From: a virus
Strand: one strand, 5' to 3'
Virus record (IMG/VR): IMGVR_UViG_3300044641_010298
Span: 1-64,000 of that record
DNA: 64,000 nt
Shown one piece after another: positions 819-57,297 of the stretch (positions are counted from its first letter, which is position 1; every line of letters starts with the position of its first letter). The translations under genes were made by a program, and so were the position numbers. The notes beneath the pieces are model-generated. The model was given only the letters and a program-made list of their open reading frames with translations, was not told where the DNA came from and ran no database searches.

Positions 819-2564
819 TTAGTGAAAGATAAGACAATCACGTATCATAAGTCTGAGCATCGATTCTGCAAGATTTGATTTCCTATAGAGGACATTCCAA
901 ATTGAATCTTTTGAATCATCATCGAGATTCTCTGGCAGAAGAGACTTGAATTCTTCCTTGTTTCCCTTTGAAAGAAGATCTCTCATGTATGTTCCCGATA
1001 TTCTCTCGCCATCGGGCATCAAGACGTTCTTTACAAAGACAGGAGAAATTCTTCCAGCTGCATACTGAACTGGGTAGTACTTCTCAAGCGATGCAGGATC
1101 AAATCTATCTCTATCATCTTCGCCTGCATATAGCTTAAATGAGACTTCGGGATCGTTTGCGTAGGCCCTGATTGCGCCTCTTGTGTCTCCTACTGGTTCC
1201 CCGCTGTAGCTTATGTCGACATTCTCTGGCAGGATTGGCTCAAGATATCTCTTCCATATCTTTATCATATCAGATCCGGAGATCTCAACTCCTCCGCTCT
1301 CCCTTGACTTTGCTGATACGATGAGAAAGACCTTGTCATTCTCTCTGGATGCCTGTTCAATGACTGCCCAGTGACCCTTGTGCAGAGGCTTGACTGCCAT
1401 CGGAACGACTCCAATGCTAACAAATGATCCGCTCCCCTTGACTCCTGCAGATGCTCTTTTTCCCACAATGTTTCTGGCTGCTGATATAGCATCGTCCTGT
1501 ATTACGATCAGATCTTTTCTTGGATTATCAACTCCTTCGTTTTCAAAATTCTCTCTGGACATCGAATAAACTATTTCTGATATTTTTGCCAGCATTGACG
1601 AGACTGATTCATCATCAAGATCGTCCTCATCAATTTTAGCCCTAATGAATCTAGAAAGATTCTCATAGTAGGCAGCCTCTTGATCTTTTGTTCCTTCGCC
1701 AAATTCTTGCTGCTTTTTCATCTTTCTCATTTCTTGATCGTGCTGATCAGATCGAGAAGTCTTAAAAAGTCTGCCCGTGTATTTTGTTGTCTGGCCTGTT
1801 GCCGGATCTTGAAGCGGTGTGATAACAACACCCTCAGCATCTCCGCCTAGTGCTGATGTGAAATCAGAAAATACATCAATAATGAGGCTTAAAGCCTCTT
1901 TCCAGCTTCTTGTCCCGATTAAAGAGTCTAGCTTCTGACGCATGCTTTCAAATCTGCTGGAAATACTGGAATCTTTTGATCCTGCCACAAGATTATCAAC
2001 AGAATCTAGTCTTCCTTCAAAAAGAACAGGATAAGACTCTAACTCAAGCGCGTTTCGAAAGTATTCAAATTTTTCAGAATCATTTTCAAACTCAGCGAGA
2101 GATGTAATTCTTGCACCTCTTAGAGAAAAAACAGTCGGTCCAAACCCAGTCAAAAATAATCCACCTGTCTTCTCGTAACTTCTTGAGATTGTAGGTTTTC
2201 TCTGGATAAACTCGATAAAGAATTCATAGTCTGCGGGGAAATCTGCTGTATTCTTGTGGACACGCTTCAGGTGGTTGTGAACAAATGCATACTGGCTTCT
2301 ACCTGCGGACTTCTCCTTGATCTCTTCTTCTCTGCCTCTTCCGACAAGTCCTGTGAATTCTTCTGGAAAAACAACACCTTCTTTATAAGCAACAATCCAG
2401 TTTTTTAGATAGTCATCCTCGTCGAAAGGTTCACTATTTCTGATAAATGTGAGTTTTGTGCCATCGAGCTTTTCAACGATCTTTACGTATTGATTGCAAA
2501 ACTCCTGAGCAGCAACTGCAGATGTTACAACCTTGATGACCTTTGGAATAGAGATGTCAAGCAT
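819..2564 (-). CDS. RNA/DNA ligase-like domain fused to HxGH nucleotidylyltransferase
   Basis: This 581-residue protein has two enzyme-like halves. Residues 1-275 carry the motif order of ATP-dependent nucleic-acid ligases. There is a K-L-D-G motif I at 32-35 (the lysine would take AMP), a motif III-like YEFFIEF around 113-119, EGVVI (motif IV) at 244-248 and a motif V-like RLFKTSR at 265-271. Residues 275-370 are charged and helical. Residues 380-530 resemble the cytidylyl/NMN-adenylyltransferase superfamily, with GVVPMAVKPLHKGH giving the HxGH site (395-398) and ISGTYMR at 522-528 as the second nucleotide-binding motif. The gene overlaps the Pol-beta-like gene before it by 8 bases, so the two are probably co-translated. 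RNA repair, RNA end modification or cofactor synthesis are all possible. The domain calls come from motifs only; the substrate is unknown. Confidence 0.72.
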   Translation of the reverse strand: MLDISIPKVIKVVTSAVAAQEFCNQYVKIVEKLDGTKLTFIRNSEPFDEDDYLKNWIVAYKEGVVFPEEFTGLVGRGREEEIKEKSAGRSQYAFVHNHLKRVHKNTADFPADYEFFIEFIQRKPTISRSYEKTGGLFLTGFGPTVFSLRGARITSLAEFENDSEKFEYFRNALELESYPVLFEGRLDSVDNLVAGSKDSSISSRFESMRQKLDSLIGTRSWKEALSLIIDVFSDFTSALGGDAEGVVITPLQDPATGQTTKYTGRLFKTSRSDQHDQEMRKMKKQQEFGEGTKDQEAAYYENLSRFIRAKIDEDDLDDESVSSMLAKISEIVYSMSRENFENEGVDNPRKDLIVIQDDAISAARNIVGKRASAGVKGSGSFVSIGVVPMAVKPLHKGHWAVIEQASRENDKVFLIVSAKSRESGGVEISGSDMIKIWKRYLEPILPENVDISYSGEPVGDTRGAIRAYANDPEVSFKLYAGEDDRDRFDPASLEKYYPVQYAAGRISPVFVKNVLMPDGERISGTYMRDLLSKGNKEEFKSLLPENLDDDSKDSIWNVLYRKSNLAESMLRLMIRDCLIFH

Positions 2565-3903
2565 TTATAATAAACCTCACGAAACGACGTACGTTCTCTT
2601 CGAGCTCTACAGGAGCAAGGTCTTCTTCGTCGCTAACAAGAGATCCTCTCTTTGACATCTTATCTACAAATCTCCCATAATATTTCTCAATAATCCCTTC
2701 TAGTTCTTCCTGCGGCATTGCTTCATTTAGAAGATCATCAAAGCCCATCGTTCGTATCGTTGCAATAGCTGCAGCCTTAGGCTGCTGGTCTTTCACGATG
2801 CTATATGTGCTGATTTCTTGGCCTGTATCTCCAATCAACTTATAGATGAAAGACTTTAAAACGCTTCCACAAAATTTTCTACCCTGGTCCGAAGTCAGAA
2901 GATTCTCTCTCATTATCTCGAGCAAACCTACAAAGGATCTCATCTTCTCGAGGTCTTCGCTTTCAGGCTCGAACCCGAATGCAGCCATAAAAATCTCTGC
3001 AACATCAGTTGAATACTTCTTATTTTCAGGCTCTGTAAGCTTGTAGAGCGGCTGATCTTCGTATTCTGCTTCGACTTCTTCGCCTGTTTGAGGATCAGTA
3101 TACTTTTGTCGAGTTAGTCGAGTCTGACCAAGTGCCTTCTCAACTGAAAAAGACTTCATGTAAAGATCAGACTGGTATCCTTTTGCAACTTTGACCTTTT
3201 CTGGCGGGTAGACAGGTGACTTTGCAGTTGCAATAACTCCGGTTGACATTCTGGAAGCAACAGAAACTAGAGACTGCAAAAGATACTTGTGAAAGACTCC
3301 TTTGACAGCAGTCTGAACATCTCTCCAATTAGATGAATGACTTAACTTCACCCATCGCTTCAGTGCATCTGCAGTTTGTTCATCCTCACCTTCAACGGGA
3401 ATTGGTTGAGGCATGAAGTCAAACTGAACATATGGCTCTCCCTTTCCATCCATGTATTGAAAGATTGAGTTTGTTCCTCGAGAATCGGCTGTACTATTCT
3501 CAGAGTGCATCTTTGTGCAGATAATCTTAAACTTAGATCCGGGAATCATCTGCCCTGCACTTTTCTCGATTGTACGCATGAGCTTTGATCCGCGAGATCC
3601 AGCCTGAGGTACGTAGATGTCAATATCGCTAAATGATCCCTTGTATCGATTGAACTCTTCATCAGTGATGCTGGCGTCAAAGACATGCTCCGTAGATCCG
3701 CCAAAGATCAACAATTCATCAATATTTCCAGATAGATCAGGCCACAACAGAATTCCGTTATCCTTTTCGAAAATATCGTTGAGGCCCATTAGCATAGATT
3801 TCACATCTTCGGTAAAAACAGCCCTGGAACTAGCCCTGGAGACCTTCAGGGTACGGCCAGATATCAATTTACCATCGATCTCGCAACGAAAGTTTCCGCC
3901 CAT
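2557..3903 (-). CDS. Pol-beta-superfamily nucleotidyltransferase-like protein
   Basis: In this 448-residue protein the N-terminal third has the arrangement of a Pol-beta-type nucleotidyltransferase. There is a GGS helix-cap motif at 68-70 (LLIFGGS), a DxD pair at D93/D95 (SDIDIYV) and a third carboxylate at D162 (VQFDFMP). The spacing from GGS to DxD is longer than usual because of an insert of about 12 residues. Residues 170-448 are mostly helical and unrecognised. The ATG at 3903 follows a GAGTGAG purine stretch. It directly precedes, with an 8-base overlap, the ligase/HxGH fusion, which suggests one pathway. A CCA-adding, tRNA-terminal or toxin/antitoxin-type MNT function cannot be separated from sequence alone. 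Alternatively it could be a degenerate structural relative. Confidence 0.62.
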   Translation of the reverse strand: MGGNFRCEIDGKLISGRTLKVSRASSRAVFTEDVKSMLMGLNDIFEKDNGILLWPDLSGNIDELLIFGGSTEHVFDASITDEEFNRYKGSFSDIDIYVPQAGSRGSKLMRTIEKSAGQMIPGSKFKIICTKMHSENSTADSRGTNSIFQYMDGKGEPYVQFDFMPQPIPVEGEDEQTADALKRWVKLSHSSNWRDVQTAVKGVFHKYLLQSLVSVASRMSTGVIATAKSPVYPPEKVKVAKGYQSDLYMKSFSVEKALGQTRLTRQKYTDPQTGEEVEAEYEDQPLYKLTEPENKKYSTDVAEIFMAAFGFEPESEDLEKMRSFVGLLEIMRENLLTSDQGRKFCGSVLKSFIYKLIGDTGQEISTYSIVKDQQPKAAAIATIRTMGFDDLLNEAMPQEELEGIIEKYYGRFVDKMSKRGSLVSDEEDLAPVELEENVRRFVRFIINA

Positions 3904-3930: not shown

Positions 3931-5340
3931 TCATGAAAGTGTCAAAATCTTGGAACCGGCTCCCCAGATTCTGAACACACCTGATTTTGATGCAATTTCT
4001 CTCTCAGAAATTCCGCTAGAAGCCTTGAATTTAAACCTGTCAAATCTAGATCTCATATCTGTATACCAGTAATCGGGACCGGTCTGTCCGACTTCTTCAA
4101 ACCCGCATGAGAGGTATCCCGTGCCAAATCCAACCCGTCTATCGACATATGTCATTAGGCCAGAATGACCTAACTCAATTGCATGCTCTAGAGCTGCACG
4201 TGCCAGCCTTGATAGCCCACCCACAACAATCACGCCCGGTGTCGTTGCATACCTTGAAATCTCTAGCCTATCTCTCCACTTTTCCTGTCTCGGAACTCTG
4301 ACGGAGAGACATGACAAAATTTCACCCTCATATTCAATCGCCCATGCATTCTGAGCGGGTGCGTATCCTGCCAGATGAGAAGATTCAAAGAACTGACGCT
4401 GTGTTTTTGCATCAATCTGGACCACCTTACATTTTCTGGCGCCAATCTTTCTATCAGCAATCCCAAGACGACTTCGAATCATCTGTTTAACGATGTAATT
4501 CCTGTCTCTCCACTCATCATGAAATATTTGCAGTAGTCGAACGCCAGCATTCTCAGCAAGCGTCGCCTTTGTTGCATGCAACTTTGGATCGCATCCATCC
4601 TTTGCCTCTGAATGAAAGTAGAGGCCATGACATTCAATTCCAAAGCGTTTGTCCGGAACGAAGATGTCAATTTCTTTTGGAAAAATGGTCTTTCTGTTTC
4701 CTCTCTCGACGTTAAATCCTAGAGAAGAAACAAATTCTTCGACTTCAAGCTGCCACTGTGATGCTGTCAGCGGGTGACACTTTTCACAAAGTGTGCCTCT
4801 TTCAAAGGCTTGCAAAGTTTTTTGCTGTATGTCTCCGCACTTCTTGCATCTAAATTCAAGATATTGGCGCTGTCTGCTCACATATTCTTCGATGGGAGTG
4901 ATAAGCTCAAAATCAGAAGATCGAGACAAAACTCGAGACTCAATTGTCTCACCCATGAGCCGTTTTGATATGCTAATCTTTGTTCGAGTTAGATCATCGT
5001 GTGACCTTCCAAAGAAGGGATTTCCAGATCCTCTCATCTTGTCTGCAATCTGCTTTATGCGCAGGTCGCAGTCAGCAGTCTTGCCTTTGTTCCAGGCCTC
5101 TGCTTTTCCACCTTTCGATCCGCCCTCTCTCATTGCAATAGAGGAGCATGATTTGCAGTATTTCTTGAATTGGAATGACGTGTATCTTGTTTGAGATCCA
5201 CAAGCTTGGCAGGTCGGTCGAATTCCTCCGTGAAAGTGCTTGATGGTGTAGTTTTCTCCTGTCATTCCATGATATGACTTGATGTGATTTGAGAGGACTT
5301 TCCCGTCTTTAGTCTCGCAGGAGCATTCGAGGCAGATCAC
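3931..5340 (-). CDS. Homing endonuclease, EDxHD (Vsr-like) type with C-terminal GNAT-like domain
   Basis: This is a 469-residue free-standing homing endonuclease. Residues 1-65 form a zinc-binding module (CLEC, HIKSYH, CQAC, CKSC). Residues 103-125 look like a NUMOD3 DNA-binding repeat (GSGNPFFGRSHDD). A second Cys4 knuckle is at 165-188. The nuclease core shows EID at 223-225, GIECHGLYFHSE near 234-245 and FHDEW at 273-277, the order expected for the Vsr/EDxHD group typified by I-Bth0305I. Residues 310-450 resemble a GNAT-like domain often appended to phage endonucleases (AIEYEGEILSCLS, GPDYWYTD). It starts with GTG, overlapping the previous gene's stop as GTGA. The pair sits between the capsid gene and the nucleotidyltransferase genes, as expected for an intergenic mobile element. 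Confidence 0.83.
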   Translation of the reverse strand: MICLECSCETKDGKVLSNHIKSYHGMTGENYTIKHFHGGIRPTCQACGSQTRYTSFQFKKYCKSCSSIAMREGGSKGGKAEAWNKGKTADCDLRIKQIADKMRGSGNPFFGRSHDDLTRTKISISKRLMGETIESRVLSRSSDFELITPIEEYVSRQRQYLEFRCKKCGDIQQKTLQAFERGTLCEKCHPLTASQWQLEVEEFVSSLGFNVERGNRKTIFPKEIDIFVPDKRFGIECHGLYFHSEAKDGCDPKLHATKATLAENAGVRLLQIFHDEWRDRNYIVKQMIRSRLGIADRKIGARKCKVVQIDAKTQRQFFESSHLAGYAPAQNAWAIEYEGEILSCLSVRVPRQEKWRDRLEISRYATTPGVIVVGGLSRLARAALEHAIELGHSGLMTYVDRRVGFGTGYLSCGFEEVGQTGPDYWYTDMRSRFDRFKFKASSGISEREIASKSGVFRIWGAGSKILTLS

Positions 5341-6125
5341 GCAAAGCTCACAACTTCGTAGTGTGCGTCATTCTGTAGGCACCACTGCATTAGCGCACGC
5401 CACTTCTCGCGATCAACGTCTGTTGCATAGCCCTTTATCTCATAGAGCGTCCTCATGTCAAGAGAGATGAAATCTGGAATGTAGGTGCGCTCTTGCCCGT
5501 TCGGATCAACATAGGGGATGCGGATCCCGTGCTTCTTGGTGACGGGCGTCTGACTCTCTATGCACTGATCGAGGAATCGTGTCTCCCAAGAAGAGTGCAT
5601 GTATTCCTCCCGGGATGTGAATGGGTTATGCTTCCATTCAGCCTTGTAGGGCGCCTGGGGACCGATCTTGCCCTGCTCGAGGAGATTGATGGCGTGCTCA
5701 GTCTGTCTCTTTCTCTTTTCAGCCGACTCGGGTTTTTGCCAGTTCTCTGAGTTTGTCTTGGCTGAACGCTTTCGGACTTCGGGTGTAATGTGCGTTCTCA
5801 TGAGAGATGCCTGACTTACTGCCTTGTCTTTGTTTTCTCCATAAAATCGAATCAAGTTTTCACGATTCTTCTCACCAATCTTTGCCTTGGATTCTTCTGT
5901 CAGGCGACCCTCAATCCTTGCTGAGTGGCCATGAATGTAGCGAAGGAATCGCATGCCTTGAGAAAGTGAGAATGGCGCATCTTGACCACAGCCACACTCG
6001 CACTTTGGATTAACACCAGCATGTACGTAATTTAGAAGGTAGTTTTCATAAGAGATTCCATGTGCCCTAGACACGTGTGATGCAAGACGTTCGAAGTCTT
6101 TTTGACAGATTTTGCATGATTCCAT
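5337..6125 (-). CDS. Homing-type endonuclease, PD-(D/E)XK fold
   Basis: This 262-residue protein opens with a zinc module like that of the next gene (CKIC, then HVSRAH, then CECGCG). A basic helical linker at 75-145 follows. The C-terminus has a complete PD-(D/E)XK signature: E181 in SSWETRFLDQ, D218 in YIPDFI and E229-I-K231 in LYEIKGY. That resembles TnsA/DUF559-type nucleases used by free-standing homing elements. The ATG at 6125 lies in an A/T-rich leader with no clear ribosome binding site, just beyond the capsid-gene terminator. The gene is noticeably more GC-rich than the long structural genes, which may reflect transfer. Nuclease fold confidence is high; homing behaviour is inferred from context. 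Confidence 0.78.
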   Translation of the reverse strand: MESCKICQKDFERLASHVSRAHGISYENYLLNYVHAGVNPKCECGCGQDAPFSLSQGMRFLRYIHGHSARIEGRLTEESKAKIGEKNRENLIRFYGENKDKAVSQASLMRTHITPEVRKRSAKTNSENWQKPESAEKRKRQTEHAINLLEQGKIGPQAPYKAEWKHNPFTSREEYMHSSWETRFLDQCIESQTPVTKKHGIRIPYVDPNGQERTYIPDFISLDMRTLYEIKGYATDVDREKWRALMQWCLQNDAHYEVVSFA

Positions 6126-6205: not shown

Positions 6206-6252
6206 ATATAGTTGAATCTAAACCGTAAGATTTAGATTACATTCAACTATAT
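6206..6252 (-). promoter_or_regulatory. Long A/T-rich hairpin spanning the capsid stop codon
   Basis: The arms ATATAGTTG (6206-6214) and AATCTAAA (6215-6222) pair with CAACTATAT (6244-6252) and TTTAGATT (6231-6238). This gives 17 base pairs with a 5-base bulge (6239-6243) and an 8-base loop. The capsid stop codon (6247-6249) lies in the stem. There is no U tract of its own. It may protect the capsid mRNA 3' end or help termination; both roles are inferred. Confidence 0.6.
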
Positions 6253-8154
6253 TATGTTCATGTCAAGACACGTGACGGTGCCGTAGAAGTCGGCGCGAAC
6301 CATCTTCTTACCGTAGCGAGTCATGACGCCCTTACGAGGAGTGAAATCCTCGGGAGCAAAGATCGTCGGGGTGACGATGAGCGGGACGTACGGAGCGTAG
6401 ACGTAGCCGGTCTCGAGGTAAGAACCGCCCTTGTAGCCGACGAGAACCTTGTTCCTTGGGAAGTAAGGATCCTTGTAGACCGTGAAGCGGTTGGACAGGG
6501 TGCCGATGGGGGAGGCGCCGATGGACATCGAGCCGCCGACCTGGCCCTGGCCATCGATCGAGTAGTTGGGCTTGTAGAGCACCGAAGCCTCGAGGACGGT
6601 GGCGACATCGGGTGAAACCACGATGAAGTTGGCCGAACCACGAAGGGTCTTGCGGTGGATCTCGTTAGCAACGTCGATGATGGTCTCGATGAGGGTCTCG
6701 TACCACTCGCGGACCGTACCGGTGAAGGCAGGGCCGGGAGAGAGTGTATCACCACGAGAGACCTCGGTTCCGTTTGTCTTGTTGACGAAACGACCGGGAG
6801 CACGTGACCAGAAGTAGTTAGCACCACGAGCCTCGGTGAGGAGGTCGTTGAGGATCTCACGGTCGATCTCGAGGGCGATCTGCTCGCTCAGGATCTGAGT
6901 CAGTTCGACCTCAGCATCCATTGAGTGGTATGCATTGAGATCCTGTGCCAACTCTGGCGACCAGCGAGCGCGCAGCTTGCGGGTCGTTGCGGTGACCGGG
7001 ATGGACTCGATCTTGATGTCGATCTCAGGGATGATTGGCGAAGGCGAAGTACCGAAGTTAGACTCGAACGAAGGAATCGTAAGAGTTGAGGCATCGGATC
7101 CATCAACGCTCAGTGTGTCGGACACTGTGTAGGATGCAGTGAGGTTGAGAGAAACAGCAGCGGCTGTTCCTGCGTATGCTCCCGAGACGACAGTCAGAAC
7201 AACAGCGTTAGCAGAGCCAGAGGCGAGAAGCGGGTTGGGTGTAAAGATACCACCAACTAGAGTTCCGTACTGGTTCAGACGACGAATGTTGAGGATGTTC
7301 TGTCCACCCTGGAAGGACTCGCCCGGAACTGCGAGAGTTCCTGCTGGAAGCGCCTCAGAGTGGAGAGCGATCTCCTTGACCTGCTGGAAGTCAGTGTTGG
7401 GCGGAAAGGTCGTGGCATCGAGGAAGACGAACTGGAACTGACCCGTGCCGTTAAGAACGTTGTCAGAAGCGTCAGACTCGATGAGAGTTGTGACCTGTGG
7501 GTCGAACTGGAGGAAGCGTCCGTCTGTGCCGGTGGCAAAGCACTTGGCGCCGGTTGTGAGTGTTGATTTAGCCTGGAATGCACCCCTTTCTGCAACGCTA
7601 AATGCTGTAGAAGCGCTGTGAACCTTGGTGAAGCCCGTTCCAACAAGATCGTACTGACCGCCGGTGGCGAGAGATCCAGAGCGAACGCCCTTGCCAACAG
7701 GGTTGTTGTAGATCGACTGTCCGCCCTTGTAGGTTGCGCCAGCGGTTGACGTGCCAGTCGTGAGCGAGGCATCGCCGCCAACGTCAGAACCGTAGGTGTA
7801 ATCCAGGTAGAACAGGAGACCGGAGGGGAGGCTCATCGGCTGGATGGAAACGAGCTCGTTGGCAACGAGACCGCCGAACACGCGACGAACGATGGGGAAG
7901 GCGATGTTGGTGAAACCACGGATGTCGCCAGAGGAGGAGGGATTGCCACCGCCGGTGCCGAGGGTGTTGACCTCGCGGAGGAGCTGTGCAGCCTGGTTCT
8001 CCATGAGGCGAGCCATGTTGTCACGCTTGACGCCATCAAGGCCACGAAGCAGGCCGGTACGGGTCCACTTCTCAATGAGGCGACGGCCCTCCTCGGTGAT
8101 GTTGCGATCACTGATTCCCTCAGTGAGCATGTTTAGCGAAAAATTCTTTGACAT
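6247..8154 (-). CDS. 23: Major capsid protein, T4 gp23-like
   Basis: At 635 residues this is longer than T4 gp23 (521). Residues 80-122 hold the conserved N-arm and E-loop region (GFTNIAFPIVRRVFGGLVAN, then QPMSLPSGLLFYLDYTYG). A second conserved block near 400-450 includes TRKLRARWSPE and LNAYHSMDAEVELTQILS. Four prohead-protease-type sites, (L/I)xE, occur early: LTE 10-12, ITE 19-21, LIE 26-28 and LME 50-52. One of these, most likely the last, would be cut by the gp21-like protease during maturation. Residues 140-390 are Gly/Thr/Ser-rich and probably form an inserted surface domain. The ATG at 8154 has TAGGAGA upstream. Codon use is GC-rich compared with most of the window. It sits directly after the scaffold gene and ends at a strong terminator. 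Confidence 0.96.
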   Translation of the reverse strand: MSKNFSLNMLTEGISDRNITEEGRRLIEKWTRTGLLRGLDGVKRDNMARLMENQAAQLLREVNTLGTGGGNPSSSGDIRGFTNIAFPIVRRVFGGLVANELVSIQPMSLPSGLLFYLDYTYGSDVGGDASLTTGTSTAGATYKGGQSIYNNPVGKGVRSGSLATGGQYDLVGTGFTKVHSASTAFSVAERGAFQAKSTLTTGAKCFATGTDGRFLQFDPQVTTLIESDASDNVLNGTGQFQFVFLDATTFPPNTDFQQVKEIALHSEALPAGTLAVPGESFQGGQNILNIRRLNQYGTLVGGIFTPNPLLASGSANAVVLTVVSGAYAGTAAAVSLNLTASYTVSDTLSVDGSDASTLTIPSFESNFGTSPSPIIPEIDIKIESIPVTATTRKLRARWSPELAQDLNAYHSMDAEVELTQILSEQIALEIDREILNDLLTEARGANYFWSRAPGRFVNKTNGTEVSRGDTLSPGPAFTGTVREWYETLIETIIDVANEIHRKTLRGSANFIVVSPDVATVLEASVLYKPNYSIDGQGQVGGSMSIGASPIGTLSNRFTVYKDPYFPRNKVLVGYKGGSYLETGYVYAPYVPLIVTPTIFAPEDFTPRKGVMTRYGKKMVRADFYGTVTCLDMNII

Positions 8155-8181: not shown

Positions 8182-9528
8182 TTACTTGATACCGGCTAGG
8201 ATTGCCCAGCGATCAACCTCGCCTGCACCGCTCATTCGGGCAGAAGCTGAGGTTGTGGGGCGAGATGCCAGACCGGCTGTGTGCCTGACTGACTCATTGA
8301 GAGACTCATTCTTCTTTGTGATTGAAGTGGAGAGGCTCTCATAAAGCAACTTGGCCTCGCGAAGGTTGGCTGCGCCGTCAAGTGCCTCGATGATTGCGCG
8401 ACGTTGATTAGGTGCAACGTCCTTGTTCTGGAGGATCTTGTTGACGTAAAGAAGCTTTGCGTTGAACAAGTTGAGATCGGAAAGTTGCTCACGAAGCGTT
8501 TCAACTGCGCCTCTGTAATCATTGAGCTGCTGCTTGAGTGCACGATTCTCCCGTGCCTCTTTCATAAGTTTAGACTTGACATCGCCATGCTTGTTCATGT
8601 CAACATCAAGTACATCACCTTCAAGTGTTCCGCCGCCGAAAGAATCAGCAGCGTGCTGGTGTGAAGACTTGTGATTGCCTGGGGCCTTCTTGGACTTGGC
8701 CTCGCGAAGACGAGCAAGCTCGCGACGGAGCATGTTCTCGTCTATCTCGTAGACGGCCTCAGCCATCTCGCCACCCTCTTCTCCGGCAGCAGCAGCGGCG
8801 GCATCCTCAGCAGACTCTTCGCTGCCGACCTCAACCTCTTCTTCCTCCGCTCCTGCCTCTTCCTCGAATTCGACGCCGGAGATGCCAAGCTTTTCAAAAG
8901 CCTCTCTCTCCTCTGCAGAACCGACGAGCTTTAGAACAGCTTCCTCGAGCTCATCTTCGTCATCGTACATCATCTCGTCAAGCTCGTAGAGATCTTCGTC
9001 TACTTCCTCTTCCTTGTGTCTCATGCCTTTTTCTCCAATTTTTGCGTTTTTTGGTTTCATTTCACTAATAACAGCGTCTCTGAGATCATCGAGATCAATC
9101 TCGTATGCATCGTCAGCATCGCCCATTGCGCGTTCAGCGAGCTGATTAGGATCATTTAGTAGACTGAGAAGAGCACTGCGATCAGCCTCGCTTAACGATC
9201 CAACAGCACGATCAACAGCAGTGTGATCTGCGTTATCGGTCTTTTTTCCAGAACCAGACATGAGATTCACAAGCGAGCTTAGCGCAGACTCGTCAAGAGT
9301 CACATCTTCATCATCATCATCAGCTTTCTCACCTTCATCAATTGAAAGCGCCTCGTTAAGAAAGTCCCCACTCTCATCGTCAGGATTTCCTCCAACAAGC
9401 TGCTTTTCAATAAATTCTCTGATTCTTGGTGTGACTGCCTCTATTATCGCATTCTTTGCGTTCTGCTCAGCTGCTTCTCTTAGCAGCTTCGCATCTGCGA
9501 TTGCCTCTTCGAATAGAGATTTCGACAT
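8182..9528 (-). CDS. 22: Prohead core scaffold protein, T4 gp22-like
   Basis: This 448-residue, very acidic and helical protein lies immediately upstream of the capsid gene, as gene 22 does in T4 (269 residues there). It has Asp/Glu-rich tracts at about 65-75, 195-265 and an Ala-rich acidic stretch near 240-255. A coiled-coil segment at about 320-370 is followed by a conserved-looking tail (LLYVNKILQNK, RRAIIEALDGA, EAKLLYESLS). The C-terminus ends in a short basic-hydrophobic peptide (RWAILAGIK). Such proteins fill the prohead and are later degraded by the gp21 protease. The extra length comes mainly from acidic repeats. The assignment rests on position and composition, with good support from the C-terminal pattern. 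Confidence 0.85.
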   Translation of the reverse strand: MSKSLFEEAIADAKLLREAAEQNAKNAIIEAVTPRIREFIEKQLVGGNPDDESGDFLNEALSIDEGEKADDDDEDVTLDESALSSLVNLMSGSGKKTDNADHTAVDRAVGSLSEADRSALLSLLNDPNQLAERAMGDADDAYEIDLDDLRDAVISEMKPKNAKIGEKGMRHKEEEVDEDLYELDEMMYDDEDELEEAVLKLVGSAEEREAFEKLGISGVEFEEEAGAEEEEVEVGSEESAEDAAAAAAGEEGGEMAEAVYEIDENMLRRELARLREAKSKKAPGNHKSSHQHAADSFGGGTLEGDVLDVDMNKHGDVKSKLMKEARENRALKQQLNDYRGAVETLREQLSDLNLFNAKLLYVNKILQNKDVAPNQRRAIIEALDGAANLREAKLLYESLSTSITKKNESLNESVRHTAGLASRPTTSASARMSGAGEVDRWAILAGIK

Positions 9529-11534: not shown

Positions 11535-12140
11535 TTACTTCCACTGATTGATATCATTGAAAATTCTATTGATTCTGTCAGACTTATTAAAGGTCGCACG
11601 CAAGTCCGTTGGAGTAATTCTTCTAGATTCTTTGATCATGAATGCTCCGGGCGTGCTAGGCTCAGATACGATGTCAAAGCAGATGAGCTGGAAATCCTCC
11701 TGGACAACCAGGTTTCCGTTTTGCTGCTTCGTGGATCCGACGCCTCGACTAGAGATGCCAAGGGTCACGCCTGATTCAATCAAGCTTTGTAGAATTTTTC
11801 CGCTCGGTGTGTCAAGAAGCTCAACAGATCCATAGACTGTATCACCTTCCATTCTTGCCTCTCGGACAATATGTGATGCATTCTTGAGCTCAACAACAGA
11901 CGTATCTGGGTGATCACACTCACCAAGGGCGCGGTTCTCTTTGATGAATTTCTGATAATTTATGATCTCTCTCTCAAGGATGGCGCGAGGATAAACTCTT
12001 CCATTTTGATTAAGAGTGTCTGAGCGCTGGATCACGCCTCGTAGCATGATCTTTCCGCCATTTTGTATGCGAGACTCCTTGACAAGTGCAGGATTAATCG
12101 ATAACGGAGTCCACTCGGTTAGAAGTGAAAGATTACTCAT
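11535..12140 (-). CDS. 21: Prohead core protease, T4 gp21-like
   Basis: This 201-residue serine protease belongs to the phage prohead protease group (T4 gp21, peptidase family U9/S77). The fold features are visible: an N-terminal strand region (KIMLRGVIQRSDTLNQNGRV), the catalytic-type histidine H77 in ALGECDHPD, the serine S130 in GVTLGISSRG, and a third acidic site in FDIVSEPSTPGA. It cleaves scaffold and capsid proteins after (L/I)xE-type sites. The last 30 residues are a basic tail that may be removed by self-cleavage. It overlaps the preceding gene by four bases (12137-12140) and lies in T4 order after the portal and before scaffold and capsid. Confidence 0.93.
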   Translation of the reverse strand: MSNLSLLTEWTPLSINPALVKESRIQNGGKIMLRGVIQRSDTLNQNGRVYPRAILEREIINYQKFIKENRALGECDHPDTSVVELKNASHIVREARMEGDTVYGSVELLDTPSGKILQSLIESGVTLGISSRGVGSTKQQNGNLVVQEDFQLICFDIVSEPSTPGAFMIKESRRITPTDLRATFNKSDRINRIFNDINQWK

Positions 12141-12997
12141 TGTGCCTCCCTGGACTCTTCAATTAGCTGCGATAGAGTCATTAGCTTGCTTAGCTTATCA
12201 TCATCAAGGGATGAAAGGTCAAGAGATGAGACCCTAGACCGGATCCCTTTGATGTTTTCCTGGATTATTTGATTCTTTTCCGTCTTCTCAATTAGATCGA
12301 GTGACCTAATTGATTCTTCCTTTATTCTTTGTGCCCGGAGAACCATCTGCTCGCTAGGCCCGTCATTTGTTCTCATCACAACGTAGTCTCTAATGAGTCC
12401 ACGCTGGTCATCTGTGAGTGTGCCTGCATACTTCTTGTTGAATTTTTCGCTAAGAATCTTGACAACGAGAGGATCGACGCTTGAATCTCTAGCCTCCTCC
12501 TCGATGATCGGCTCTTCAGGCCTCTTTAGCATCTCTACAAGCTTTGTCTCAACAATTACTGTCTTAGAAAGGTCAGATCTATCGCCGAGATACCACTCGT
12601 TTAATGCTGTCTGAATCGTTGCAAGATCCCGATAATTTGTGATTCTTCTATGGAAAAAGCTCTCATCATTAAGCACGTGATTTATGTCTCTGATGAGAAG
12701 AGACTTCTCTTTGTCTAGGACTGCGTGATTAATTCTTCGAGCAGCAGACTTCGTCTCAGTTAATATGACAGCTGAAATTGCAGAATCTGTCACTCTTGTC
12801 TTTGCAAGCGCATTGAAGAGCCTAAATTCCTTGAAGAGCTCAGTGTCCTTTGAGAATTTTGCAGAGATTATGTCAAGTGCTGATTGTGCTTTGTCTTTCT
12901 TTCCCTCAATGAGGTAAGAAGAAACTGCTCTCAACAGGAGCTCGTATACGATTCCTACATTTCTTTTCTTATTATGACTAATGTTCACAGGATTCAT
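12137..12997 (-). CDS. Unknown helical protein between portal and protease
   Basis: This 286-residue, almost entirely helical, charged protein has no cysteine or membrane pattern. It overlaps the portal gene by four bases at its start (ATG at 12997) and the protease gene by four bases at its end, so the three are tightly coupled. In T4 this interval holds the prohead core genes 67 and 68, but those products are far smaller and no similarity is visible. A scaffold, core or portal-associated role is the best guess from position. Confidence 0.78.
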   Translation of the reverse strand: MNPVNISHNKKRNVGIVYELLLRAVSSYLIEGKKDKAQSALDIISAKFSKDTELFKEFRLFNALAKTRVTDSAISAVILTETKSAARRINHAVLDKEKSLLIRDINHVLNDESFFHRRITNYRDLATIQTALNEWYLGDRSDLSKTVIVETKLVEMLKRPEEPIIEEEARDSSVDPLVVKILSEKFNKKYAGTLTDDQRGLIRDYVVMRTNDGPSEQMVLRAQRIKEESIRSLDLIEKTEKNQIIQENIKGIRSRVSSLDLSSLDDDKLSKLMTLSQLIEESREAQ

Positions 12998-15009
12998 TTT
13001 TCCTCCTCTGATGTATTGGACTCAGAGCTGATACTGTTTAGTGACTTTAGTAGGCTCTTGTATTCCTTGTCTCTTTTTTCTGTGTCGACAATCTTATTGT
13101 TTAAATAATCATCAACAAAGCTGTCAGACTCATCAACCTTAAATTTATGAGCATTTTTTAGAGGATTGATGAGATCTTGCTTCTCTCCAAACGGATGTGC
13201 TATCGAGTCTCGTGGATCTTTTTTGTCTGACTTAACCATGTCATTATGGTGTGTGCGAGTCCCAATAGATCCGACCATCTTTCTTCTAGACCTATTGTAG
13301 ATCTCGCGCTCTGTGTAATCGGGACCAATTTTTGTTTTTTCATCAAGTAGATGTCTATTGACATTACCCGGCCTTGCTAGGCCTGCAAAAGCACGAAGTG
13401 GAAGACCCTTTGCAGAGGCTATCTTGTTTAGATCTATCTCTGGTTCATCGTCAAGCTCAGCGACCGACGGGAGCTTGAAAGGGTTTCTAGTGTCAGAAGC
13501 TGTTAGAGGACCAGGTCCTGTCTCGCTTCCAAGATCTAGACCGCCCTTCTCTTCGGGAGGAGGTGCCCCTTCTTCGCCTTCTTTTCCTCCTCCGGATGCT
13601 GGTTCCGGTAGCTTAACAGCCTCAATCTTGAGGGAGAACTCCTTGTCCTTGATTATTCCCTTCTCTATGGCGTCGATCTCCTCGTCTGGCATCATGAATA
13701 CGTTCTTTCTAATCCAGTTTGTATCAACAAGATTTTCAACGTTCTTTGCTGCCTGTGAGATAGTAAACTTGGTGTTGTAGAGCTCAAGCTTCTGCTGCTG
13801 CGCGATAGTTGAAGGATTTGTGAGCTTGAGATCAAAATCAAGGAGGTCGTGACCATCAAAACCGTTGCAGTAAAGATGCACAATTGCAAGCTTATTTAGC
13901 TCAGAGATGATAGTTCTCTGGATTCTGCTAATTGACCTGGAGAATCTAATATCTTCTTGTGAGAGCGTCGCTTTTGCGCCAAGACCTTCGTCATACCCCA
14001 GGTATGCCTTCGGTATCTTGAGTGCTGCAAACAGCTTCTTCTGGATGTACTGGACGTCTTCGATTGCAGCAGCGTTTGTACCTCCTGTCAGATTCTCAAC
14101 CTTGGTGCCAGACTGACCGCCTCTAACAGGAATGAAGTAGTCCTCGTCGACAGACATTGGATTGTACCTGAGATCTACACGCCCTGTTGATCTGTCAATT
14201 ACCTGATTCTTCTTGAGCGTGGACTGTGCCTGCTCCATGTAGTTTGGAATCTCTTCAGGAGGCACATTTCCAACGTCAACGTAGAAGACTCTGCGATCCG
14301 GTGCACGAATAATCCTATAGACGAGCATTGCGTCTTCAACCAGGATCATCTGTCTCCAGATTCTTCTGGCAGCTTCTAGGACTGATGTTCCGTATGGCAA
14401 AAATGCATCATTGCCAAGGAGCCTGAAATGAGATACTTGCCAATTCTGGAGAGTCTGATTTCCCTGGGTTACCCACCTGTATCTGACCGCAAGCGGATCT
14501 TCTCTATCAAATCCCTCCTCTCGCTCGATCTCGTTAACAGCAATTGGAAACACGTTGACAACGCCGTGCTCTGGAGAGACATCGTTAAACAAAAAGAAGT
14601 CTCCGTACTTACACATGTTCCTGACCCATGAGGTCATATTGAAGTTAACGTTCAGGGTATCAAAGAAGAGCTCGTTTAGAAGTCTCTGTATCTCAGCATT
14701 CTCTGAGTAGATGTGGAGAACGTTTCCCTTCTCGTCTGGCGAGACTGTCTCTTCGGAGTAAATGTCGAGAGCGCTTGCGATCTCAGGTGTATATTCCATC
14801 TCTTGGAAATCTGAGTATCTTGCCATGCGATCATAAGCACCGTAGGCGCTCATTGCTGTGCTGTAGACGTTACTTTGAGTCTTCCTGAATAGCTCGTATG
14901 CAGACGTGCTTACGTCGCTCGGCTTGAATTCTCTTACTCTTCTCTTAACGACTGGTCCGCTTCTGAACAGCGTTGTCAGCCGATTGAAGATGTTCTCATT
15001 TTTTGCCAT
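12994..15009 (-). CDS. 20: Portal protein, T4 gp20-like
   Basis: This 671-residue portal subunit compares with 524 residues in T4 gp20. Conserved-looking stretches include MEYTPEIASALDIYSEETV (about 71-89), WVRNMCKYGDFFLFNDV, IRAPDRRVFYVDVGN and LGYDEGLGAKATLSQEDIRF, as expected for the T4 portal group. Twelve copies would form the vertex through which the terminase packages DNA. The C-terminal 180 residues are acidic then basic, Pro-rich and probably exposed. It starts at an ATG with GGGGTTAAAAT just upstream and lies three bases after the terminase gene. Confidence 0.94.
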   Translation of the reverse strand: MAKNENIFNRLTTLFRSGPVVKRRVREFKPSDVSTSAYELFRKTQSNVYSTAMSAYGAYDRMARYSDFQEMEYTPEIASALDIYSEETVSPDEKGNVLHIYSENAEIQRLLNELFFDTLNVNFNMTSWVRNMCKYGDFFLFNDVSPEHGVVNVFPIAVNEIEREEGFDREDPLAVRYRWVTQGNQTLQNWQVSHFRLLGNDAFLPYGTSVLEAARRIWRQMILVEDAMLVYRIIRAPDRRVFYVDVGNVPPEEIPNYMEQAQSTLKKNQVIDRSTGRVDLRYNPMSVDEDYFIPVRGGQSGTKVENLTGGTNAAAIEDVQYIQKKLFAALKIPKAYLGYDEGLGAKATLSQEDIRFSRSISRIQRTIISELNKLAIVHLYCNGFDGHDLLDFDLKLTNPSTIAQQQKLELYNTKFTISQAAKNVENLVDTNWIRKNVFMMPDEEIDAIEKGIIKDKEFSLKIEAVKLPEPASGGGKEGEEGAPPPEEKGGLDLGSETGPGPLTASDTRNPFKLPSVAELDDEPEIDLNKIASAKGLPLRAFAGLARPGNVNRHLLDEKTKIGPDYTEREIYNRSRRKMVGSIGTRTHHNDMVKSDKKDPRDSIAHPFGEKQDLINPLKNAHKFKVDESDSFVDDYLNNKIVDTEKRDKEYKSLLKSLNSISSESNTSEEEK

Positions 15010-52945: not shown

Positions 52946-53887
52946 TCAACTCTTTTTGCTGACTGCTCGACCAATCTGGTGTTCCCAGTCTCTATCTTTT
53001 TCTCCGCGGACCTCTAGATTCTTTTCCCACGCAGATACCAAAACCTTTGGATCAATTCCGTTCTTTCTAGCAACTGATATTAGTGCGTTGATGTCCTTTG
53101 GGAAACAATGTCCGCCAAATCCTCTTACATGGTTTCCCTCGTGAGTTGGAACCGGGCCAGGAACAGACCAGTGGGTACTTCCTAGTCTAGTATCGAATTT
53201 TGCGTACTCTACAACCTTGTCATAGTCAACATTGAGACCGCTAGCATCAAGAGATTCACAAATCTGTGAAATCTCGTTAGCAAAAGAGACTTTCACTGCA
53301 AGAAAGCAGTTCGTAACGTACTTAACCATTTCAGCTGTGGTCGAGTCTGTCTTAACAATTGGTACACTGGGAAATGCTCTCTGGAAAACATTCTTTACAG
53401 TGTTTATCTGCGGTCGTGGTCCTCCCAGAATAATTCTATTTTGGCTTCTCATATCATTCAGAGCATTTGCTTCTGTTAAAAATTCGGGATTAAAAACTAC
53501 GTAGAGTCCATTTGAATTATATTTTTCATTCCACGACTCTGTTGATCCCGGAGGAACTGTAGATTTAATAACTGCAATTCTCTCACCCGGGATAGCAGCA
53601 AGCTCTTCCAGAACGCTCTCAACAATCGAAAGATCAGCTGATCCATCTTCTTGCATCGGAGTTGGAACACAGACAAAATATACCCCTGAAAATTGTGTCC
53701 CTTTTTCTGGTCCCACTCTTTCTGCGTAGTCTATCATTCCCTTTAGAGACCAAAGATCAGACATCTCAAATACACCAGGGACTACTTTTCCAGCTTTATC
53801 AAAAGCATAGACAGTAAATCCTCGTTCAGAAAATACAGTCGCAAGTGAACCGCCAACAAATCCTTGTCCAATAACAGCTATGCTCAT
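52946..53887 (-). CDS. Short UDP-glucose/GDP-mannose dehydrogenase family enzyme
   Basis: This 313-residue protein has an N-terminal NAD-binding loop GQGFVGG (7-13), E135 in [13 protein letters not shown]199 in [12 protein letters not shown] and the catalytic cysteine C261 in [14 protein letters not shown]. These are the residues that oxidise a nucleotide sugar to its uronate. The usual C-terminal sugar-nucleotide-binding domain is largely absent: the family is typically about 430 residues, so this copy stops soon after the active-site cysteine. It may depend on a partner or have changed function. It overlaps gmd by four bases and lies in the sugar-nucleotide block. Confidence 0.85.
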
Positions 53888-54858
53888 TTTATTTTCTCTC
53901 TCTCTGCAGCAAGATCAGATTCATACATTAGCTTTGCGAGACTCTTGAACGTAGTCTTTGGTGTCCATCCGAGCTTTTCCTTGGCCTTGGTGCAATCTCC
54001 CTCCAGCCAGGGCACCTCGTGTGGTCTCCTGAGCCGATCATCTATGATGAGATGCTTGTCAACATCAAGGCCGGCAATCTGGAAGACCTCATCAAGGAAC
54101 TCTCTAACTGTATGAGTCTCTCCGGTGGAAATCACGTAGTCATCGGGCCTGTCTTGCTGCAGCATGAGCCACATTGCCTCAACATAGTCCTTTGCGTATC
54201 CCCAGTCTCGGAGCGCATCGAGATTTCCAAGAGAGATATTGTCCTGGAGACCGAGCTTGATCCTTGCCGCTGCAAGGGTGATCTTGCGGGTCACAAATGT
54301 CTCGCCACGACGAGGGCTCTCATGGTTGAAGAGAATACCGGAAGAAGCGTGGATGCCGTATCCCTCGCGGTAGTTACGTGTTAGACCATGAGCAAAGACC
54401 TTCGCGCATGCGTATGGCGAGGCCGGCATCAGACGTGTCAGTTCATTCTGGGGGTGTTCCGGGTTGTCACCGTACATCTCAGAAGAAGACGCTTGATAGA
54501 ATCGACAATTTGGTTGCATTGTGCGAATGCACTCTAGAAGTCGAAGCGGTCCCATGGCAACTGCGTCCACTGTCTCTTCCGGAACGTCAAATGACACCCT
54601 GACGTGTGACTGTGCAGCGAGATTGTAGACCTCATCGAACTTCTGGTTCGAGAAGAGCCGGTAGAATGCTCCGACATCGTTCATTGAGCCGTAAACGAGC
54701 TGGAAGTTTGGATTTGCGAGGAGATGGTCAATTCTGTCAGTCGCCAATAGTGAGGTTCTCCTCTTCACTCCGACGACCTTGTATCCCTTCTCCAGAAGGA
54801 GCTCTGCCAGGTATGAACCGTCCTGTCCTGTGACTCCAGTGACCAGTGCTGTCTTCAT
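53884..54858 (-). CDS. gmd: GDP-mannose 4,6-dehydratase
   Basis: From the ATG at 54858 the protein has 324 residues; an in-frame TTG at 54864 was not chosen. It is an extended short-chain dehydrogenase with [15 protein letters not shown] (7-21), the catalytic SSEMYG at 125-130 and YACAK (Y149, K153). It makes GDP-4-keto-6-deoxymannose, the substrate of the enzyme encoded just upstream. Local GC content is well above that of the AT-rich genes near 60 kb (57% in 54301-54360 against 28% in 60301-60360, counted by eye), consistent with separate acquisition or strong codon selection. Confidence 0.94.
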
Positions 54859-54860
54859 GT

Positions 54861-55787
54861 TCAAACTATAACACCACGAACGTTCGGGTATCTTACTTGA
54901 AAGTACTTAATAGTCTCTCTTAGACCCTCGCGAAGAGGTGTATATTCACCCTTCCAGCCAAGAGACCTAAGCCTCTCGTTGGACGAAGGCTTTTCGTACT
55001 GTCCGTCAGGCTTACTCTTATCAAAGTTACAACCTCCCTCGTATCCAATCTCCTCAGCAATCATACGAGCAAGACTTTCAATCGAGACCTGCTCTGGATT
55101 TCCAATGTTGACAGGCTCTGCTTTGTCATAGTTCTCTGCAAGCCAGAGAATAATTCTTGCTGCATCACGTGCAAAAGTGAACTCACGTAACGGCTTGCCA
55201 CTTCCCCAGACATCTACATGGTCGTGTCCGTAGACCTTTGCCTCGTGAAATTTTCTGATGAGAGACGGTATGACATGACCGCTGTTTAGATCGTAGTTGT
55301 CGTTAAGACCGTAGAGATTGTTAGGAATGACTGAGATAAAGTTACATCCGAACTGTTGACGGTATGCCCTGCTCTGTACCTCTAGCATCCTCTTTGCGTA
55401 TGCGTAACCAAAGTTTGAAGGGTGTGGTGGACCGAGATGAAGCTGGTCCTCTGTGAGCGGGTATTTCACGTATGCAGCATCTGGATAGATGCAAGTTGAG
55501 AGGATAGAGACAAGCTTTAGTCCGTCATGCTTGCAGGCTTCAAGAATGTTCATGCTCATACGAACGTTATCATCAAAGAAATCTGCGACATAGTCAGTGT
55601 TTGCTTTCACACCTCCTACTCTTGCAGCGCAATGAATAACTGTGTCAAACTTACCATTTGGACAAAGTCTGAGTTTAAAATTGCCCGTGAGATCACAATT
55701 TTTCGAATTAAAACCAATTGATCCTGGTGAAAGAGATAGAACCTCACTTCCAAGTAGACCAGTTGAACCTGTAATCAGTCTCATCAT
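54861..55787 (-). CDS. fcl: GDP-L-fucose synthase (GDP-4-keto-6-deoxymannose epimerase/reductase)
   Basis: This 308-residue short-chain dehydrogenase has GSTGLLGSE (7-15), the catalytic Ser/Cys pair in SILSTCIYP (S97, C99) and Y128-xxx-K132 in YAYAK. It epimerises and reduces the Gmd product to GDP-L-fucose. Two adjacent ATG codons start it, overlapping the previous gene's stop. It precedes gmd by two bases, so the complete two-step route is encoded together. GDP-mannose must come from the host. Confidence 0.9.
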
Positions 55788-56422
55788 GATTCTCTATTGA
55801 CTTCCCAGACAGTCAAAGATTCTCTCCACCAGTAGGAAAAGTTGGAATATTTTACAGAGGCCTGGCCTAATGCATTGCTAGCAGGAACATTTAGAGTAAA
55901 TCCTTTCCCTACCATAAGATCAACAAAAGAATCAAAAGGCAAGGGATTTAAATGCTGGTGGTGTGGATCGCTTTCTGGATTTTCAGATCCACCATATCGA
56001 CTCCACGTCATTATTAGATACTTACCCGTTAGAGATCTTAGATTTTTTAGTAGAGTCTCTGTGTATTCGGGTTCGATATGTTCGCCAACTTCAGTGCATA
56101 TCACAATATCGAACTTCTTTTCTTCTAAGCCTTCCGGCAAAGGATCTCTTATATCAATAAAGTGAATATTATCAACAATTGATTTGCTAGCGTACTTTTT
56201 ATGATACTCAAAATATTCTATTCCTTCAACACTAACATTTTTGAATCCTGATTTAATGAAATCAATAAGATGACCATCTGCACAACCTACATCAATAGCA
56301 CTTGAGACACTACTAAAATTAAATACTTCTTTTAAGACTTGAAAAAATGATTCATATGGTGCAGGAGAGCGACCTGTCTCCTCGCCCTCTGGATATCTTT
56401 TCTCAATGTTAATTTTTTCCAT
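55784..56422 (-). CDS. SAM-dependent class I methyltransferase
   Basis: This protein has 212 residues from the ATG at 56422, which overlaps the upstream stop as TAATG and follows AAAGGTGG. A GTG three codons upstream is possible. The SAM-binding loop is visible as AIDVGCADGHLIDFI, and a later FDIVICTEVGEHIEPEY is a typical Rossmann methyltransferase motif IV. It may methylate a sugar or a sugar-modified product. Acceptor unknown. Confidence 0.85.
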   Translation of the reverse strand: MEKINIEKRYPEGEETGRSPAPYESFFQVLKEVFNFSSVSSAIDVGCADGHLIDFIKSGFKNVSVEGIEYFEYHKKYASKSIVDNIHFIDIRDPLPEGLEEKKFDIVICTEVGEHIEPEYTETLLKNLRSLTGKYLIMTWSRYGGSENPESDPHHQHLNPLPFDSFVDLMVGKGFTLNVPASNALGQASVKYSNFSYWWRESLTVWEVNRES

Positions 56423-57297
56423 TAAATCCACCTTTCTTTGGACACGACTGGGACATACTGCAAAAAATCAATCTGGCTATAGTCAAAAGACTTTAGTCTA
56501 AAATTGGTCCATGATCCCATATACGGTCTTTCAAAATCAACTATTCCAGCAAGAGCATCAATACCAGATCCTACATCATAGAATATAGCATTTTTGTATT
56601 TTTTAAGTCTGTGAAGAAGTCCAGATTTAACATGCCCAATTCCGACTAAAAATATGCGAGTCTCTTCTGATGAGTTCTCAAGCTGAGTTGCAACGCTTCG
56701 TTCAAGAGATTCAAGATCATCACACGCAAATTTCTGCGGGATCTTAATATAGTCATTAAAAGTCTCAAGACCAAGAAACTCTTGATATTCTACATTTTCC
56801 ATTAAACCCTGGATTAAGTCAATCTTTTTATCAGCTCCAATTATACCAATCTTTCCAGAAAAATTCTTTGTTAGCCATCTGCTAGAAACAAGACCGTATC
56901 CAAATTCAGCAGGAATATTGATTGGACGGTCAGGGTACAGATCTCTAAAAAGGTGAGTGTTATAAAGCTCAACAGCAATCAGATCGTTTTGCACAACACC
57001 ATTAATAAAATCATCGTGATTAAGCATCTGACTGTAATCTTTTCCAATAGATCTCTTTCCAGGAGTTGCACTTCCATATGGAATCTTTTTAAGAAAGTAA
57101 TAGTCGCCATCTCCAAACTTATAAATTGTGCAGCTATTTCCCGCAGAAGTCGCTTCAATTAACCACTTCTTGAATCCTTCTAATCCCTCCTGGAAGTTTG
57201 GACAAGCATCCGGATTTTGAAAAACTGGGTGTTGATCTAGATTTAGCGATCCTTCTATTTCATATTGTGGCAAAAAACCCGGATGCTTATCAAGCAA
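56422..57297 (-). CDS. GT-D-like glycosyltransferase candidate (DUF1792-type)
   Basis: This 291-residue protein starts with TTG, supported by AGGAG at 57303-57309 with good spacing; no ATG fits. Near residue 61 the motif YKFGDGDYYFL resembles the FGDGE loop of the GT-D (DUF1792/GT with DXE) enzymes, with Asp in place of the last Glu. Later blocks (KIGIIGADKKIDLIQ, IFLVGIGHVKSGLLHRL, IFYDVGSGIDALAG) fit the Rossmann-like core of that family. Its neighbours are sugar enzymes. This is a reasoned family guess. Confidence 0.62.
   Translation of the reverse strand: MLDKHPGFLPQYEIEGSLNLDQHPVFQNPDACPNFQEGLEGFKKWLIEATSAGNSCTIYKFGDGDYYFLKKIPYGSATPGKRSIGKDYSQMLNHDDFINGVVQNDLIAVELYNTHLFRDLYPDRPINIPAEFGYGLVSSRWLTKNFSGKIGIIGADKKIDLIQGLMENVEYQEFLGLETFNDYIKIPQKFACDDLESLERSVATQLENSSEETRIFLVGIGHVKSGLLHRLKKYKNAIFYDVGSGIDALAGIVDFERPYMGSWTNFRLKSFDYSQIDFLQYVPVVSKERWI

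Follow-up and report, generated by a model that had tools for sequence, protein, structure and literature searches.

A coupled RNA ligase-HxGH fusion and Pol-beta-type nucleotidyltransferase beside the capsid genes of a virus contig: a candidate RNA-repair pair, possibly head-packaged in relatives

Two overlapping genes on the minus strand of IMG/VR virus record IMGVR_UViG_3300044641_010298 (a 104-kb contig from a T4-like bacterial virus, of which positions 1 to 64,000, a stretch of 64,000 nucleotides (nt), are here called the window) encode, respectively, a Pol-beta-type nucleotidyltransferase (NT) and a protein in which a ligase domain like that of T4 RNA ligase 2 (Rnl2) is joined to an HxGH nucleotidyltransferase domain (the fusion). 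The catalytic residues of NT and of the ligase domain do not vary among homologues, the two genes are coupled, and terminal peptides (tags) resembling the T4 capsid-targeting sequence are over-represented in their relatives. We give about even odds to the view that T4-like phages use the pair for RNA-end repair and, in many lineages, package it in the head and inject it; such a unit would act on RNA, with nucleotide addition by NT, and would serve in counter-defence.

The first-pass annotation of the window had described two open reading frames (ORFs) with an 8-nt overlap beside the capsid genes. Both are present on the minus strand where it placed them, with the genes for gp23, the head protease and the portal nearby. 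The features of the pair are as follows.

819..2564, minus strand: fusion, 581 amino acids (aa), Rnl2-type ligase domain plus HxGH nucleotidyltransferase domain (ORF, AlphaFold2, Foldseek, Pfam on homologues).
1725..2564, minus strand: ligase catalytic domain, about residues 1-280, with K32, E118, E244 and K268 (invariance; PF09414).
1446..1691, minus strand: helical linker, about residues 292-373 of the fusion (secondary structure of the model).
822..1421, minus strand: HxGH nucleotidyltransferase domain, residues 382-581, with H395, H398 and ISGTYMR at 522-528 (PPAT/NMNAT profile; NCBIfam).
819..875, minus strand: tail at the C-terminus of the fusion, NLAE/SMLRLMIRDCLIFH, a candidate for head targeting, with a putative protease site (tail motif common to the clade).
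2557..3903, minus strand: NT, 448 aa, Pol-beta-type nucleotidyltransferase by motif (ORF; invariant GS/DxD/D; model).
2557..2604, minus strand: tail at the C-terminus of NT, ELE/ENVRRFVRFIINA, likewise a candidate for head targeting (tail motif common to the clade).
2557..2564, minus strand: 8-nt overlap of the NT and fusion genes (ORFs; identical in eight relatives).

The ligase and HxGH domains of the fusion

Homologues were gathered from IMG/VR, and 42 fusion and 38 NT sequences entered the conservation counts. The motifs of the fusion are K32-L-D-G, E244-G-V-V-I and R265-L-F-K268-T-S-R, followed by H395-K-G-H398 and I522-S-G-T-Y-M-R528. Residues K32, D34, G35, K37, E118, E244, G245 and K268 are invariant (42/42), and K32, E118, E244 and K268 furnish ligase motifs I, III, IV and V of an Rnl2-type ligase; the earlier assignment of KLDG, EGVVI and RLFKTSR to a ligase is thereby borne out, K32 included. 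Because the key residues never vary in the 42 fusion and 38 NT homologues, the motifs of the two proteins are not due to chance. The AlphaFold2 model of the fusion has a predicted local distance difference test (pLDDT) score of 90.5, and its top PDB match in Foldseek is T4 Rnl2 (2hvr; E 8.8e-7, probability 1.0), with NMNAT/PPAT next. The top matches of the ligase fold are RNA ligases (Rnl2, tRNA ligase and REL1), and no DNA ligase stands among the top matches of the model. The helical linker lies in a position that we take to be comparable to that of the helical C-terminal domain of T4 Rnl2. In sequence comparisons, the Pfam family RNA_ligase (PF09414) matches 12/42 homologues at E <0.1 (best 1.3e-5), while a Pfam scan of the window fusion itself recovers the HxGH part only, leaving PF09414 unmatched; a sequence-only PDB search gave one weak match (E 0.07), and hhalign of the fusion family with T4 Rnl2, either by itself or accompanied by five relatives, was too weak to be used. 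The motif I lysine of the fusion aligns with that of T4 Rnl2. Sealing of RNA ends is the activity predicted for the fusion from these features.

The C-terminal domain matches PPAT and NMNAT structures by profile (E 6e-9) and NCBIfam cyt_tran_rel (E 5e-5), and CTP_transf_like of Pfam matches 26/42 homologues, so that with the Foldseek and PF09414 matches the fusion of a ligase to an HxGH domain, as first claimed, holds. The HxGH and ISGTYMR motifs noticed at the same time are both intact in the window protein and its clade, but their conservation does not extend through the family. The last histidine, H398, is present in 42/42 homologues, whereas position 395 is H in 12, T in 28 and S in 2 (H or T in 40/42) and Arg528 of ISxTxxR is retained in 13/42; the HxGH catalytic residues are thus not kept across the 42 sequences. 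These counts place the ligase centre under strict constraint and find the HxGH centre complete chiefly in the window clade. In most relatives the HxGH domain is probably altered or regulatory.

They also bear on a different reading of the pair as a nucleotide-modifying system, in which the HxGH domain would synthesise a compound of the NAD, CDP or ADP type, or injected NT would nucleotidylate host tRNA or proteins, and the ligase would attach the product. The HxGH profile is indeed closest to PPAT and NMNAT, the window clade has kept both motifs, and a list of protein-modifying domains in phage proteins that are injected includes Pol-beta-type ones (PMC5512222). Nevertheless, most members show decay of the HxGH residues whereas those of the ligase are invariant, and no NAD-salvage family was found among the recurring neighbours examined; we consider this reading very improbable. 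Synthesis of NAD or of RNA caps as the main role was rejected, there being no supporting neighbour and the HxGH residues being eroded. From the original proposal of an RNA-repair, RNA end-modification or NAD/cap module, then, RNA repair survives, since it fits the neighbouring phosphoesterase, kinase and CCA enzyme, and the NAD or cap part is not supported.

The nucleotidyltransferase partner, gene coupling and neighbours

The motifs of NT are G68-G-S70, D93-I-D95 and D162. Residues G3-N4, G69-S70, D93, D95, D162, D195, K201 and K206 are invariant, and the signature of the Pol-beta superfamily, GS...DxD...D, is found in 38/38 homologues, in agreement with the Pol-beta-type partner proposed at first pass. 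NT belongs to phrog_19290, a family without annotated function, and no Pfam family matched either the window protein or the 38 homologues. Its structure model (pLDDT 90.3) gave weak, partial Foldseek matches in the PDB to DNA polymerase mu and OAS, with a best E of about 0.5, and a sequence-only PDB search returned no match for NT; two viral structure models match it well (E 7e-24 and 1e-9). As the PDB matches are weak, the Pol-beta assignment depends mainly on the invariant signature. Nucleotide addition is the activity that this signature predicts.

Phage RNA ligases are known to be accompanied by RlaP, the RNA-ligase-associated Pol-beta nucleotidyltransferase (PMC7824862). NT resembles RlaP in being a Pol-beta-type enzyme beside a phage RNA ligase, but differs in remaining unmatched by Pfam and profile comparison: identity with RlaP (PF10127) was rejected, with no Pfam match in 38 members and an hhalign probability of 0.1. 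A separate RlaP gene occurs in 4/26 whole records with family members.

The family comprises about 50 IMG/VR loci (labelled L0xx below; metagenomic records are fragments). Both genes lie on the same strand in 34/35 two-gene loci, with NT first in 32 and a gap of at most 5 nt in 18, and the exact 8-nt overlap recurs in nine loci, namely the window and eight relatives of its clade. Both genes are present in 20/26 whole records and in 17/18 records with a length of 100 kb or more; the lone exception among the latter, L029 (G008:C1:157852-158067), retains an intact fusion and an NT remnant with stop codons. The same record holds a separate RlaP gene. The shared records and conserved arrangement confirm that NT and the fusion are coupled. 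Among 50,697 deposited phages, 21 match, and these are the identical 21 for NT and for the fusion (15 Campylobacter, 6 Vibrio); three diverged members used as queries led back to these 21 and otherwise only to a single stand-alone HxGH match, from a Xanthomonas phage. In Campylobacter phage CP220 the two genes are about 66 kb apart. Two pattern scans of GTDB genomes found no bacterial or prophage homologue of NT or of the fusion. In L046 (2754-5095, 7962-9614) an insert of about 1.1 kb interrupts NT, and the fusion occupies two separate ORFs, perhaps as the result of an intron or homing insertion, and in Campylobacter phage vB_CcoM-IBB_35 (HM246721 23981-25352) the fusion is annotated as two ORFs.

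Several enzymes recur near the pair: a calcineurin-like phosphoesterase in 19 loci, and in nine loci a P-loop kinase that matches AAA_33, Zeta toxin and, weakly, polynucleotide kinase. In L016 a gene for a CCA-adding enzyme directly follows the fusion, and Vibrio phage phiKT1024 encodes phosphoesterase, Rnl1, AAA_33 kinase, tRNA nucleotidyltransferase, NT and fusion inside 14 kb. A further recurring neighbour is the SLKK-motif family c4 (phrog_1462, no function assigned), which perhaps represents a PD-(D/E)xK nuclease; its members, of 390-480 aa with conserved WNPADIW and GISLKK, occur in L016, L027, L028, L042, L044, L045 and other loci. A PADLOC search for known defence systems gave no match.

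The kinase and phosphoesterase would also suit DNA ends, and the partial matches of NT to DNA polymerase mu lend something to the idea that a Pol-X-like NT and the ligase, once injected and so placed next to the DNA, fill and seal nicks or ends of the incoming phage genome, or circularise it. Against this, the ligase fold matches Rnl2, tRNA ligase and REL1 and no DNA ligase among its top matches, a separate DNA ligase is encoded in 12/20 records, and a CCA-adding enzyme and Rnl1 are clustered nearby in phiKT1024, so that DNA-end repair appears quite improbable. The presence of that separate DNA ligase was also the ground for rejecting a replicative DNA ligase role; none was found in the 104-kb parent record, which is a fragment.

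Terminal peptides and head packaging

The first-pass annotation had missed a feature of the relatives, namely their capsid-targeting-like peptides and prohead-protease sites. Many homologues carry an extra N-terminal peptide ahead of the conserved start that resembles the T4 capsid-targeting sequence. Examples (slashes mark the ends of the peptides) are MNFVQYINE/GKEQLDISI (L047) and MKTFKQYITE/AKAMLDISI (L031) for the fusion, and MYTFKEYIDLNE/GGN (L065) and MKLSELMFILE/GGN (CP220) for NT; T4 IPII and IPIII start MKTYQEFIAE/A. In T4, gp21 cuts this sequence after L/I-x-E (PMC9026906), residues 4, 7, 8 and 10 of it are important (PMC9026906; PMC7411985), and Alt loses a C-terminal peptide too (PMC9026906). 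An [ILVMF]xE site just before the domain is present in 23/24 non-redundant fusion extensions, against 3.1 in shuffles (maximum 10/24 in 5000 shuffles), and directly before GGN in 10/11 NT extensions, against 0.8 (maximum 5). The exact T4 spacing is found in 9/24 fusion extensions, against 0.08 in shuffles and 0.6% of internal stretches. NT proteins without an extension have such a site near the C-terminus in 15/25 cases, against 3.0 expected, a number reached by 0/3000 shuffles. The T4-like pattern is also carried by kinases, c4 proteins and one stand-alone HxGH protein of these loci, and not by their phosphoesterase. In three records high-scoring N-terminal tags occur on 1/128, 7/171 and 3/58 ORFs, the fusion being included in two of the three sets and the kinase in the third.

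In the window, which itself encodes a gp21-type protease, the fusion (LAE/SMLRLMIRDCLIFH) and NT (ELE/ENVRRFVRFIINA) are unrelated proteins that end in similar tails, common to the clade. Matches to the tail number 16 among 114 ORFs, 14 of them fusion or NT and the 15th a stand-alone HxGH protein; among internal stretches the rate is 0.5%.

These peptides make it probable that the pair is packaged and injected in many lineages, but a number of points weigh against the reading of the pair as a head-packaged RNA-repair unit. That the fusion acts on RNA is suggested by family resemblance, and Foldseek returned no significant PDB fold match for NT. The window pair has no N-terminal tag, the fusion starting MLDISI and NT MGGN; with C-terminal tails only, its packaging is less certain than that of tagged relatives. 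The C-terminal protease-type site, significant for the NT group, is found in 3/17 fusion proteins, which is not significant for that group. The T4 tag reaches only 0.5 bits in a position-specific score derived from the tags of the fusion. Finally, the tag patterns were formulated after the sequences had been inspected and the homologues are related, so that the figures describe more than they test.

Alternatively, synthesis of the same RNA-repair unit may be confined to infection, with the terminal peptides acting as docking or assembly helices that have no connection with packaging. Neither T4 Rnl2 nor Rnl1 is known to be injected. In the Vibrio and Campylobacter phages the fusion is untagged, and the 11 identified virion bands of CP220 include neither NT nor fusion, although only 11 were named (PMC2853527); both points also count against packaging. 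A deeper virion list, of 38 proteins, exists for vB_CcoM-IBB_35 (PMC3322345). On the other hand, a gp21-type site closes the tags precisely at the enzyme domain, their spacing is that of T4, and they are found at either terminus and also on unrelated proteins from these loci; production confined to infection therefore strikes us as rather unlikely.

If the pair is indeed a packaged RNA-repair unit, the following mechanism can be proposed. The ligase domain would transfer AMP from ATP onto K32 and then seal 5'-phosphate and 3'-OH RNA ends in the manner of T4 Rnl2, after NT had added nucleotides to the RNA 3' ends to make good the bases lost when tRNA or other RNA is cleaved by nucleases of the host's defence. 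Nearby phage enzymes (the calcineurin-like phosphoesterase, the P-loop kinase and sometimes the CCA-adding enzyme) would heal the ends. The HxGH domain may bind a nucleotide or the ends of RNA; in the window clade, which has kept both motifs, it might also transfer a nucleotide. In many lineages head-targeting peptides would direct the proteins into the prohead, where gp21-type trimming would precede their injection with the DNA, so that repair would be ready before any phage gene is expressed. This full version, a virion-borne kit of ligase-HxGH fusion, NT and sometimes kinase, packed by means of N- or C-terminal peptides and reversing nuclease damage to RNA from the first moment of infection, we hold somewhat less likely to be true than false.

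Three proteins of these loci may be mentioned here. In L065 (11629-12189) a stand-alone HxGH protein opens with the T4-like tag MKLFKDFVNE/GKE. A 110-aa protein of no assigned function in L031 (3630-3962) begins MKTYVEFITEAR, near-identical to the T4 tag MKTYQEFIAEAR. In L004 (4784-6585) a stand-alone HxGH protein has a window-like C-terminal tail, and the next gene starts similarly (MKSHSLLRAVIRTMLIES).

Comparison with known systems and setting of the locus

T4 Rnl2 (gp24.1, rnlB; PF09414) is not only the best fold match of the fusion: its gene likewise lies just beyond gp23, segD and gp24. The fusion differs in its added HxGH domain and Pol-beta-like partner gene, in having KxDG rather than KIHG at motif I, and in being encoded on the same strand as the capsid genes, where rnlB is on the opposite one. 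With NMNAT, PPAT and other HxGH enzymes (PF01467) its C-terminal domain shares fold and motifs, but here the domain is fused to a ligase, and relatives frequently lack its first His and its ISxTxxR Arg. Phage NadR and NadM are also HxGH fusions, with a kinase or Nudix partner and a role in NAD salvage (PMC9503650), whereas an RNA ligase is the partner here. T4 IPI-III and Alt resemble the many homologues in which an N-terminal [FY]xx[FY][ILV]xE peptide runs up to the mature protein; the predicted cargo here is instead RNA-repair enzymes, and the window pair has C-terminal tails only.

A survey of phage RNA repair presents multi-enzyme sets with RlaP and does not mention an HxGH fusion (PMC7824862). 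No description of a ligase-HxGH fusion or of an injected RNA ligase was found in searchable papers, though an earlier survey may mention one. To this extent the first-pass remark that the architecture is undescribed in phages is correct, but databases already hold the fusion unnamed (PHROG 27149; CP220 CPT_0026, annotated solely for its nucleotidylyl transferase domain). The pair thus represents a sizeable unnamed family, for which the 21 deposited Campylobacter and Vibrio phages make isolates available for testing, and an Rnl2-HxGH fusion with a non-RlaP Pol-beta-like partner offers candidate new enzymes. Accounts of phage RNA repair usually have the enzymes produced after infection, whereas a head-borne set would act before early transcription; head delivery, if true, would explain why repair enzymes are encoded with capsid genes. 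The tag also provides a simple handle with which to look for further injected phage proteins.

On the minus strand of the window the gene order is portal, protease, scaffold-like protein, gp23, two endonucleases, NT and fusion. The features upstream of NT are:

12994-15009, minus strand: portal (capsid-gene context).
11535..12140, minus strand: gp21-type prohead protease, expected cutter of (L/I)xE sites (Pfam Peptidase_S77, E 2e-27).
8182-9528, minus strand: scaffold-like protein (assigned by position; without family match).
6247..8154, minus strand: major capsid protein gp23 (Pfam Gp23, E 1.6e-78).
3931-5340 and 5337-6125, minus strand: two endonucleases between gp23 and NT (phrog_3339-type homing endonuclease; TnsA-like nuclease).

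The T4 counterpart at the position of these endonucleases is the homing endonuclease segD. Elsewhere in the window, positions 52946-57297 on the minus strand hold a run of genes that by eye resemble sugar-nucleotide or glycan enzymes.

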